The notes under the pieces: generated by a model | What the model was told of the DNA's origin: nothing | Database searches by the model: none | What the model saw: only the letters and a program-made list of their open reading frames with translations | Assembly (NCBI RefSeq): GCF_015751965.1 | Contig: NZ_JADOVH010000001.1 | Location: 496,001 to 560,000, forward strand | Direction of reading: 5' to 3' | DNA: 64,000 bases | Source of the DNA: Frigoribacterium sp. CG_9.8 | GTDB lineage: Bacteria; Actinomycetota; Actinomycetes; Actinomycetales; Microbacteriaceae | In this document: piece after piece, positions 49,852 to 52,603 of the stretch | Position numbering within the stretch: the stretch's first letter is position 1 | How the letters are laid out: every line of letters starts with the position of its first letter | Program-made: the position numbers and the translations under genes

Positions 49852-51021
49852 TTAAAGGCGCTCGATGATTGTGGCGTTCGCCATGCCACCGCCCTCGCAC
49901 ATCACCTGCAGGCCGTAGCGCCCACCGGTGGCTTCGAGGTGGTTGACCATCGTGGCTAATAGGCGTGCGCCGGATGCCCCGAGCGCGTGCCCGAGGGCGA
50001 TGGCGCCACCGCGCGGGTTGAGCTTGGCGGCATCCGCTCCGGTCTCGGCAAGCCAGGCCAGCGGCACCGGCGCGAAGGCCTCGTTCACTTCGAAGGCGTC
50101 GATGTCATCGATCGTGAGTCCGGCCTTCGCGAGCACCTTCGCCGTGGCCGGGATGACACCGGTGAGCATGAAAAGGGGGTCGCTGCCGGTCACGGCGAAG
50201 CTGTGGAATCGCGCACGGGGCTTGAGCCCGAGTTCGGCGGCCTTCGACTCGCTCATGATCAGGGTTGCGGCTGCTGCATCGGTCAGCGGCGAGGAGTTAC
50301 CCGGGGTGATCTGCCATCCGATCTCCGGAAAACGCTCGGCGAATCGCTCGGTGTAGAAGGCTGGCTTGAGTGTGGACAGTCCTTCGCCGGTCGTGGTCGC
50401 GCGCACCGTCTCGTCTGTGGATACATCCCCGATGGGGATGATTTCGTTGGCGAAGAGACCCGCAGCGGTCGCCTCGGCGGCGAGCTGGTGCGAACGGGCC
50501 GAGAAGTCGTCCAGCTGCGCGCGTGAAAAGCCCCACTTGGCTGTGATGAGCTCTGCCGAGATTCCCTGGCCGACGAGTCCGTCGGGATAGCGCGCGGCCA
50601 CTTGCTCGCCGTAGATGTCTTCGCCCATGATCGAGTAGCCGATCGGGTTGCTGCTCATCGACTCCACTCCGCAGGCGATGGCGATGTCGTAATTGCCGGT
50701 CATGATGCCTTGGGCTGCGAAGACGGCTGCCTGCTGGCTCGACCCGCACTGGCGGTCGATTGTCACGGCGGGTACATGGTCGGGGAAGCCGGCGCCGAGC
50801 ACGGCGTTGCGTGTGACGTTGTAGGTCTGCTTGCCGGCCTGCCCGACGCATCCGCCAATGACGTCGTCGACGATTGCCGGGTCTACACCGTTGCGCTCAA
50901 CGAGGGCGCGCAGGGTAGTGGCGAGAAGATCGACCGGATGCACTCCACTGAGCGAGCCGCCCGGCTTGCCACGACCCGACGGGGTGCGGATGACATCGAC
51001 GATCACTGCGGAGCTGTTCAT
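49852..51021 (-). CDS. Acetyl-CoA acyltransferase (thiolase)
   Basis: A 389-residue thiolase of the FadA/AtoB type. The nucleophile is Cys92 (IDRQCGSSQQA), with NEAFAPVPLAW, GGAIALGHALGASGAR carrying the His and the second cysteine in MCEGGGMANA. It cleaves 3-ketoacyl-CoA in beta-oxidation. As the first gene of the minus-strand cluster that encodes aldehyde dehydrogenase, ligase and GMC oxidoreductase, it should complete the breakdown of the activated acid, though hydratase and hydroxyacyl-CoA dehydrogenase are not nearby. Confidence 0.94.
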   Translation of the reverse strand: MNSSAVIVDVIRTPSGRGKPGGSLSGVHPVDLLATTLRALVERNGVDPAIVDDVIGGCVGQAGKQTYNVTRNAVLGAGFPDHVPAVTIDRQCGSSQQAAVFAAQGIMTGNYDIAIACGVESMSSNPIGYSIMGEDIYGEQVAARYPDGLVGQGISAELITAKWGFSRAQLDDFSARSHQLAAEATAAGLFANEIIPIGDVSTDETVRATTTGEGLSTLKPAFYTERFAERFPEIGWQITPGNSSPLTDAAAATLIMSESKAAELGLKPRARFHSFAVTGSDPLFMLTGVIPATAKVLAKAGLTIDDIDAFEVNEAFAPVPLAWLAETGADAAKLNPRGGAIALGHALGASGARLLATMVNHLEATGGRYGLQVMCEGGGMANATIIERL

Positions 51022-51120
51022 GGTGGACTTCCTTGTCTAGAGTCCTTCCAGCTTAGGCACGTGTGGGTGCGTGGGTCGGTGTGGATGCGTGGGTGCTCAG
51101 CGGCCGGACCGTGCGCCCGT

Positions 51121-51175
51121 TTGTCAGCCATGCGTCAATTCGTTCGACCGCATGGCTGATAAGAAGGCGCATGGT
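51121..51175. repeat. Hairpin repeat, left copy
   Basis: Contains an 11-bp perfect inverted repeat (TCAGCCATGCG at 51124-51134, CGCATGGCTGA at 51149-51159). About 55 bases resemble 52400-52455, including shared TTCGACCGCA and GGCGCATGGT blocks. The pair brackets the AbiEi/DUF559-like gene. Confidence 0.7.
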
Positions 51176-51318
51176 CCCCGTATCGTCTCCTCATCGTGCT
51201 CGGATGGCACAGCAGCTGACGGCGCATCTGCTCCCTCACCATCCGTGATTGGCTGCCCGGGTGCACAGAAGAGCGTCGCGGAGTCCGCCAGCAGCGCCGA
51301 GTACGGCACTGTCAGCGG

Positions 51319-52362
51319 ATGCAACCAACCGTTTCCCACCTGATGAATCCCTTCCACCTGATGGATCACATCTACCTGACTCGGCAACTGACCACTCCGG
51401 GAGAGCGATACTCATTCTTTGCATCGGTGTCGCGAGGCGAATTGATCGCCATGTTCAGAGGTGTCTACATTCGGGCACCGCTCTGGAATGCCATGAGTTT
51501 GGACCAGAGATATCGGGCCCGCGTGACGGCCGCGTCGCTTGTCGTCCCGCCCGACACCGTGTTCTCGCACTACTCCGCCGCTGCACTGTGGCGCCTACCC
51601 CTCGTTGGCCACTGGCCGGTCAAAGTGCACGCCCTGGTGCCGCGCGCTGCTGGTGGCCGCTCGACGAGCATGCTTGAGCGACACACGCTCGGACTCCCTC
51701 GCGAATCAGCCGTGATTGATCAGCTCGCTGTTACGACGCTCGCACGCACCGTGGCGGATTTGGCGGCGTGCACTCCTTTCGCGACTGGCGTCGCCGTGGC
51801 AGATGCCGCACTGCGCAGAACTGTGAATCCTCTGGTGTCAGCGCGTGCTCTGGCGTCAGTGCCTGCTCTGGTGTCAGCGCATGCTTTGGCGTCAGTGCCT
51901 GCTTTGGCGTCAGTGCCTCCGACATCGGTAGTCCGAGACGATCTGCTTCGTCAAGTCGATGAGATGGCGTTAACACACGGCGGTGCGAAGGCTAGGCGAA
52001 CGATCGAGTTCGCCGATGCGAGGGCTGATCGGCCGGGTGAGTCGGTGAGTCGCGCAAACATGGCATGTTCCGGAATCTCGATGCCGCAATTGCAGGTTGC
52101 CCTGGCCGGGGCGAGTGGTCGGGTGTACATCGTCGACTTCTGGTGGCCGGAATTCAACATGATTGGCGAGTTCGACGGCAACGTGAAGTACACCGACCCG
52201 GAATTCTTGCGCGGGCGGACCCCAGAGCAGGTGGTGATCGATGAAAAGCGCCGCGAGGATGATCTTCGGTCCGCGGGCCATGGAATGACCCGGTGGCACT
52301 GGCAGATCGCCAATTCACCGAATCGGCTGCGGGCGCATCTCATTGCGGCGGGCATCCGCTAG
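51319..52362 (+). CDS. AbiEi antitoxin-like/DUF559-type protein with internal repeat
   Basis: A 347-residue protein of a family common in actinobacteria but without proven role. Residues about 25-130 resemble the AbiEi antitoxin winged-helix and linker (ISRGELIAMFRGVYIR, FSHYSAAALWRLPL). Residues about 265-345 look like a Vsr/DUF559 PD-(D/E)XK-type fold: VDFWWPEFNMIGEFDG, EKRREDDLRSAGHGMTRW. Residues about 172-201 are an Ala-Leu-Val-Ser repeat encoded by an 18-bp array. The start could also be the ATG at 51346. Single gene between two hairpin repeats; lower local GC bias and codon use are not obviously foreign. Function could be nucleic-acid cleavage or defence; unproven. Confidence 0.75.
   Translation: MQPTVSHLMNPFHLMDHIYLTRQLTTPGERYSFFASVSRGELIAMFRGVYIRAPLWNAMSLDQRYRARVTAASLVVPPDTVFSHYSAAALWRLPLVGHWPVKVHALVPRAAGGRSTSMLERHTLGLPRESAVIDQLAVTTLARTVADLAACTPFATGVAVADAALRRTVNPLVSARALASVPALVSAHALASVPALASVPPTSVVRDDLLRQVDEMALTHGGAKARRTIEFADARADRPGESVSRANMACSGISMPQLQVALAGASGRVYIVDFWWPEFNMIGEFDGNVKYTDPEFLRGRTPEQVVIDEKRREDDLRSAGHGMTRWHWQIANSPNRLRAHLIAAGIR
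51832..51921 (+). repeat. 18-bp tandem repeat, five copies, in the AbiEi-like gene
   Basis: Unit close to CTGGCGTCAGTGCCTGCT, alternating between two variant forms, in frame. It lengthens the linker between the N-terminal and nuclease-like domains. Confidence 0.9.
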
Positions 52363-52399
52363 TCATCTACTGGGTGTCGATTCATAGACCCCGCGGCGA

Positions 52400-52455
52400 T
52401 TCGTCAGCACTGCGCCCCCTCATTCGACCGCAAGGCTAACGAATAGGCGCATGGT
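52400..52455. repeat. Hairpin repeat, right copy
   Basis: TTCGTCAGCACTGCG (52400-52414) pairs with CGCAAGGCTAACGAA (52429-52443) at 12 of 15 positions. It aligns with the left copy at 51121-51175 in the same orientation, with matching blocks TTCGACCGCA and GGCGCATGGT. Confidence 0.65.
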
Positions 52456-52603
52456 GCCGCGCGGTGAGTACCCGGCTGCACGCGACATAATCGGGAAGGA
52501 TTCCATGTCGCTAACGTTGAATCTGTTGTAACCCACACCTATCGACGTGCAGGCAACTGCCGATCCGAAAAAACGTCTGGCACAGAAAAGGAAGCCCACT
52601 CCC

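Follow-up and report, generated by a model that had tools for sequence, protein, structure and literature searches.

A gene for a predicted AbiEi-nuclease protein lies between palindromes of its own dialect across the Microbacteriaceae

The stretch of DNA analyzed here (the window, 64 kb) belongs to a 2.85-Mb genome of the family Microbacteriaceae, referred to as G000, and contains a single gene that is flanked on either side by a related palindrome. The question raised by this locus is what the palindromes are to the gene. An earlier note on the window had described two 55-base elements, each able to fold, around one gene with AbiEi-like and DUF559-like regions, and had proposed either a small mobile cassette or a nuclease that has recognition or regulatory sites of its own. 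Two same-orientation elements that have blocks TTCGACCGCA and GGCGCATGGT in common are indeed present with a single gene between them, but the true repeat unit is longer than 55 bases (Table 1).

Table 1. Features of the palindrome-bracketed locus (positions in the window)
Feature	Positions	Strand	Description
HP1, upstream palindrome	51107..51176	+	70-bp imperfect dyad; two ~30-bp arms, ~10-nt centre
HP2, downstream palindrome	52387..52456	+	70-bp dyad of the same dialect as HP1, degenerate
AbiEi-nuclease gene	51319..52362	+	encodes 347 aa; predicted AbiEi winged helix and Vsr/EDxHD-type (PD-(D/E)XK-like) nuclease domain
AbiEi-like N-terminal part	51358..51828	+	residues ~14-170; based on PADLOC, Pfam and Foldseek
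Vsr/homing-endonuclease-like C-terminal domain	51931..52359	+	residues ~205-347; based on Foldseek and conserved motif

HP1 ends 142 bp before the ATG of the window gene, HP2 starts 24 nt past its stop codon, and the two are 72% identical. A 33-base pattern derived from both has only these two matches in the 64-kb window and none in 100 dinucleotide shuffles, and a covariance model scores HP1 at 80.4 bits and HP2 at 61.5 bits within their own genome. Of the proposed folding of each element, only that of HP1 holds well, as HP1 is a near-perfect palindrome (z of -8.7 against shuffles, plus strand) and HP2 is decayed (z of -2.3 on the plus strand and -1.5 on the minus strand). Terminator prediction (stem plus U-tract) made no call at HP1 and none at either element on the strand of the gene; the sole terminator-like call, a weak one with a 5-bp stem, overlaps HP2 on the minus strand. 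A search for an Rfam family to which the palindrome might belong returned only weak microRNA-family matches far below threshold. Additionally, a short direct repeat, GTGTGGGTGCGTGGGT / GTGTGGATGCGTGGGT, is located just outside of HP1 at window positions 51061-51094, where homology with the corresponding site of the closed genome G003 stops.

The neighbors of the window gene are a thiolase gene on the minus strand (49852-51021) and cysK on the plus strand (from 52604); there is no partner open reading frame between them and no adjoining AbiEii (DUF1814) toxin gene. The window protein is predicted to combine an AbiEi-antitoxin winged helix with a nuclease domain of the Vsr/homing-endonuclease-like type, as judged from profile matches and from an AlphaFold model (pLDDT 82, pTM 0.80). 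The AbiEi-like character proposed earlier is borne out by PADLOC AbiEi models that match residues 32-174 (E 3.6e-12) and by Foldseek, which pairs the N-terminal part with the AbiEi antitoxin of Streptococcus agalactiae (6y8q, probability 1.00). A Pfam search of the window protein matched no domain, while AbiEi_4 was found in 9 of 16 family members. The DUF559-like label fared less evenly, as the Pfam model PF04480 (DUF559) matches neither the window protein nor the 16 family members, but the C-terminal fold matches Vsr (1vsr, probability 0.97) and the homing endonuclease I-Bth0305I (3r3p, probability 0.96, TMt 0.67). The Foldseek E-values are weak (1.3e-3 to 0.4 overall, and 0.2-0.4 for 1vsr and 3r3p); we retain both assignments since they agree with the sequence, namely with the PADLOC models and with invariant motifs. 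The conserved C-terminal motif reads VDFWWPxFxxIGEFDGxxKY...EKxREDxLR, and residues D273, E284, D286, G287, K290, E309, K310 and R312 are invariant among the sampled family. Motifs E-x-D-G-x-x-K and E-K-x-R are typical of the Vsr/DUF559-like nuclease class. The linker between the two domains contains a coding minisatellite (window 51827-51918; 18-bp unit, ~5 copies) that adds ~27 residues (SARALASVPALV...); it is missing from aligned relatives and the region is disordered in the AlphaFold model.

Genes related to the window gene are present in 188 of 300 Microbacteriaceae genomes (E <= 1e-25). Within the genus, the presence and absence of gene and palindrome correlate in a manner that is suggestive but dependent on the score cut-off; because of this dependence and the family-wide occurrence of the gene, the correlation was dropped in favor of a test of gene flanks. 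Approximately 90 related genes were fetched in two sets. The first was taken from genomes that had high scores or in which palindromes were already known, and the second comprised 40 loci (L339-L378) picked by protein score alone. Similarity between upstream and downstream flanks exceeds a score of 24 in 75 of 85 AbiEi-nuclease genes versus 0 of 80 cysK controls (88% versus 0%), with 35 of the 40 loci picked by protein score alone also above this value; about 10 of the 85 genes have no detectable flank pair. The median flank alignment score is 42 within a gene versus 14 between mismatched genes, the window pair being among the weaker ones with a score of 32. Copies on the two sides of a gene differ little (for example at L353 and L362) while those of different genes differ greatly. 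The flanking repeat usually consists of the palindrome only, ~58-72 bp long (unit ~66 bp), with a few genes having longer arrays, and in the median geometry 95 bp separate the upstream copy from the start codon and 5 bp the stop codon from the downstream copy. Long palindromes are concentrated in these flanks, with a first count of 84 in 52 kb of gene flanks versus 5 in the other 270 kb of those loci, and a matched comparison with cysK controls giving 81 in 49 kb versus 5 in 46 kb. In the named cysK loci, a set that reaches to more distant Actinomycetes, their background is higher (89 in 785 kb). The arrangement palindrome-gene-palindrome is a widespread unit across Microbacteriaceae, and the window locus is one instance of it. 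One member of the family, at G018:C1:428697-429641 (L306, the reductase-carboxylase locus described below), has an internal TAG and may be broken.

The sequence of the palindrome is specific to the gene that it flanks, and we refer to each such sequence as a dialect. Three paralogs are carried by G000, each with its own flanking dialect and each dialect with further copies elsewhere in the genome. One paralog (L113) is located between genes for a pyridine-nucleotide reductase and a biotin carboxylase (the reductase-carboxylase locus) and another (L114) beside the IMP dehydrogenase gene; 555 kb of sequence contain at least one further copy of the L113 dialect and at least five of the L114 dialect, with zero matches for a reversed-query control in the same 555 kb. 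Among the strongest palindromes of an unselected 400-kb stretch, several also prove to be of the L113 and L114 dialects. Loose palindromes, those away from any such gene, best match the flanks of the resident gene in G001, G002, G034, G049, G100, G136 and G179 and in one of two cases in G125, and do not best match an own-genome flank in G006, G009, G011, G018, G053, G087 and G095. One loose palindrome of G018 agrees with the dialect that belongs to the gene of its sister genome G100. Flanks of matching dialect and the match of loose copies to the resident gene in most genomes tested give strong support to the link between gene and hairpins suggested in the earlier note. Close proteins have similar dialects and distant proteins dissimilar ones, although the closest pairs also have neighboring genes in common, which inflates their scores. 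Dialect tracks the C-terminal half of the protein (partial r 0.18) better than the AbiEi half (0.07, p 0.05), so either domain could be the one that reads the site.

A search for further copies showed that the window-dialect palindrome is a dispersed family, with 16 sites of 70 bp each in G000 as found with a covariance model built from 32 copies. These 32 copies align without gaps, and their column conservation is strongly uneven. Most copies are located just 3' of genes (24 of 32 at most 60 nt from a stop codon), and 15 of 32 fall between convergent genes versus the 22% that window gaps of at least 70 bp would predict, a difference for which the p value of 0.002 is generous as orthologous copies were counted separately; for G000 alone the figure is 6 of 15 (p 0.09). 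At sites that are orthologous with G005 and G006 the element is 76-93% identical versus 13-76% in the surrounding intergenic DNA. G003 lacks the palindrome in all eight of the orthologous regions examined, where gene ends orthologous to palindrome-bearing ones have no such palindrome. Two pairs of copies are ~1.1-1.3 kb apart, the window pair and a pair at G000:C1:484421-485567 (L101, 3922-3991 and 4997-5066) that is ~1.1 kb apart and brackets genes for a PadR regulator and a HAAS-domain protein; the second copy of the latter pair is missing from the matching site in a G006-like sequence (L138). We also note an unrelated 70-bp palindrome with a 29-bp stem (AGCGGGTCGAGCTTGTCGAGACC...) near the end of a DAHP synthase gene in G007 (L290, 149-218), a place where G000 has a palindrome of its own. 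Some contigs of the G005 assembly are 99.7-99.9% identical to G006 amid 84-91% identity elsewhere (L136, L138, L140 versus L126, L128, L131), which indicates that one MAG is probably cross-contaminated.

The two arms of the palindrome vary INDEPENDENTLY, with 79.6% paired cells versus 79.4% in shuffles. There is no excess of compensatory changes between the arms (covariation score of 0.127 versus 0.131 in shuffles), and each arm follows a half-site consensus, GCATGGCTGACRAACGGGCGCRTGGTC. Because arm-to-arm covariation is absent, we rejected a hairpin that is selected as RNA or as a cruciform. A dyad of DNA half-sites that a protein reads on the duplex appears to fit better than either a selected hairpin or a terminator, given that the arms vary independently with each following the half-site consensus. 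Decay from a copied palindrome would equally yield missing covariation, but would not alone yield the uneven column conservation.

As for the history of the window locus, AbiEi-nuclease genes at two other positions are maintained across species, and at one of these across genera as well, with dialects that differ. This argues against frequent transposition. The window gene is sister to the reductase-carboxylase-locus genes of G009 and G011 (support 98/94), while the reductase-carboxylase-locus gene of G000 itself groups with those of G005 and G006. Since its closest relatives are located elsewhere, the window gene is probably a displaced or transferred copy. In G003 the thiolase gene adjoins cysK with neither gene nor palindromes between them, so the locus is not fixed in all relatives. 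This empty site retains an 11-mer, GGACCGTGCGC, that is equal to the outer end of HP1, and this match together with the diverged intergenic sequence is compatible with insertion and deletion alike. Neither target duplications nor precise empty junctions, as expected of a MITE or insertion sequence, were found, the junctions compared (the G003 empty site and one polymorphic copy) being too diverged. We rejected G003 as a clean outgroup as G000, G003 and G005 are about equally distant. A phage or plasmid origin was likewise rejected, as there was no phage match and the three "plasmid" matches look like misfiled chromosomal contigs.

Our preferred reading, which we hold to be somewhat better than evenly supported, is that the protein recognizes its own palindromes and probably cuts them, as part of a system that resembles REPIN-RAYT but employs an unrelated nuclease. 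The ~58-72 bp dyads on both sides of a gene would be its recognition sites, with a dialect specific to each gene lineage, thus giving each gene a specific candidate DNA target. AbiEi proteins bind pairs of 23-bp inverted repeats that are 3 or 13 bp apart (PMC7319586), and as this geometry is close to that of the dyads described here, each dyad may be recognized by a pair of protein molecules. The protein would bind the half-sites as duplex DNA, which is suggested by the independent variation of the arms and by conservation at orthologous sites above that of the surrounding intergenic DNA. The nuclease domain would then nick or cut at the palindrome, whereupon repair or recombination would place copies of palindromes, or on occasion of an entire unit, at new intergenic sites. 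Units would mostly be inherited vertically and stay at their loci, and now and then one would be displaced, of which the window copy between thiolase and cysK is a putative example. Since the dialects of paralogs differ within one cell, specificity is directly testable by swaps of proteins and sites.

The main rival to a nuclease that recognizes these sites is an autoregulator with a small regulon, an explanation to which we give a modest but real chance. The protein would be an AbiEi-type autorepressor with HP1 as its operator and HP2 as an insulator or terminator, the loose copies would constitute the regulon, the nuclease would be inactive or accessory, and nothing would be mobile. Precedent exists in that AbiEi and Rv2827c autoregulate via inverted repeats in their promoters (PMC7319586; PMC3985639), and the conservation of palindrome sites at orthologous positions, the fixed loci of the genes and the location of most copies just 3' of genes, often between convergent ones, all agree with regulation. 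However, an operator would not predict a near-identical copy directly past the stop codon, the loose copies are mostly at gene 3' ends rather than at promoters, and the sampled family shows no variation in the catalytic-type motif of its nuclease domain. Alternatively, another enzyme may make and spread the palindromes, with the gene a passenger captured between two copies by recombination. Loose copies do outnumber those that flank genes, and G005 and G006, both incomplete MAGs, keep window-dialect copies at conserved sites with no detected ortholog of the window gene. Nonetheless we regard a passenger as improbable, as three paralogs in one genome have three dialects of their own, dialect tracks the protein, genes of this family are bracketed and cysK genes are not, and a Y1/HUH transposase (PF01797) is absent from all 13 genomes of the genus by a search that was positive in 5 of 14 control genomes. 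That the palindromes are ordinary dispersed bidirectional terminators that flank the gene by chance is very hard to credit despite their positions at 3' ends and between convergent genes and the strong folding of HP1, given the lack of any U-tract call on the strand of the gene, the single weak minus-strand call, the missing compensatory changes, the orthologous G003 gene ends that do without such a palindrome and the gene-specific dialects.

The occurrence of such units extends beyond the Microbacteriaceae genomes. Both palindromes surround the gene of a Salinibacterium MAG (JADGNA010000011.1, L255), and homologs in Tsukamurella and Collinsella have matching repeats on both sides, which in Tsukamurella are direct repeats and not long palindromes. 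In Collinsella aerofaciens (NZ_OY725717.1; L381, 1436-1615 and 2884-2939) the homolog is located between inverted repeats with TGTTACAGATCGAGAC arms. A small sample taken with no control set (L382-L391) shows short classical DUF559 genes next to short palindromes that are often of the CCCTCTCCC...GGGAGAGGG kind; such neighbors were observed in Azospirillum, Sphingomonas, Deinococcus, Sinorhizobium, Shinella, Novosphingobium and Neisseria, and the palindrome of an E. coli example is unrelated. We treat an extension of the repeat partnership to short DUF559 proteins as a lead. It is conceivable, though we would not yet wager on it, that orphan bacterial palindromic repeats have their missing partner enzymes among the Vsr/DUF559-fold nucleases at large, in either AbiEi-fused or short DUF559 form. 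The AbiEi-fused form would then tentatively pair with ~70-bp dyads in Actinomycetota, and the short form with CTCTCCC-type or similar repeats in Proteobacteria and Deinococci. If true, this would define a second, non-HUH class of nuclease-repeat systems and provide an enzyme candidate for CGTC-type REPs. Among papers that mention DUF559 in the open literature searched, no title or opening line of an abstract concerns palindromes, and reports there on AbiEi together with palindromes or repeats are operator studies only.

The significance of these units lies in the tie that they provide between dispersed palindromes, which mostly go ignored, and very common annotated genes that as a rule lack an explanation ("AbiEi family antitoxin domain-containing protein" and "endonuclease domain-containing protein"). 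With some reservation we consider the system to be new in kind, as it resembles REPIN-RAYT by architecture but is built from unrelated components and we found no description of it in the open literature searched; individual facts could already be described outside of that literature. Should the protein cut or copy the palindrome, this would be a REP-like system without a Y1 transposase, with a bearing on how short palindromic repeats originate and persist.

Four known systems come closest to the unit. The AbiE type IV toxin-antitoxin systems (AbiEi, Rv2827c) share the family and fold of the N-terminal part, and AbiEi binds inverted-repeat pairs near its gene (PMC7319586), but here thiolase and cysK take the place of the AbiEii nucleotidyltransferase partner, a predicted nuclease domain follows the winged helix, and the sites are found on both sides of the gene and genome-wide. 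The C-terminal fold and the E-x-D-G-x-x-K...E-K-x-R-E/N-D motif are shared with Vsr, the EDxHD homing endonuclease I-Bth0305I and DUF559 proteins, from which the present protein differs by its location outside of an intron or intein, its AbiEi fusion, its bracketing palindromes and its lack of a Pfam DUF559 match. CGTC-tagged REPs, short palindromes found at the 3' ends of genes, have a YGTC motif, 8-9 bp stems and an unpaired tag, and are reported from five phyla, Actinomycetota not among them, reportedly without a dedicated transposase (PMC3733652). Location at gene 3' ends is common to both, and the G001 dialect, GTTTGTCATCCCCGCG, resembles this class, but the unit described here consists of one ~70-bp dyad in which the tag lies within the paired part. 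REPIN-RAYT systems consist of a single-copy, mostly vertically inherited gene with its own flanking palindromes and loose intergenic copies, with dialects that differ between genes and species (PMC3116915). The likeness is that here also the gene is flanked by its own palindromes and that loose intergenic copies of the same dialect occur. Identity with RAYT was rejected on the absence of PF01797 from the genus, an AbiEi winged helix and Vsr-fold nuclease standing where RAYT has a Y1/HUH transposase. Additionally, copies number tens at most rather than hundreds, and the compensatory arm changes reported as common in REPINs are absent. Consequently, the architecture is that of REPIN-RAYT while the components are unrelated.
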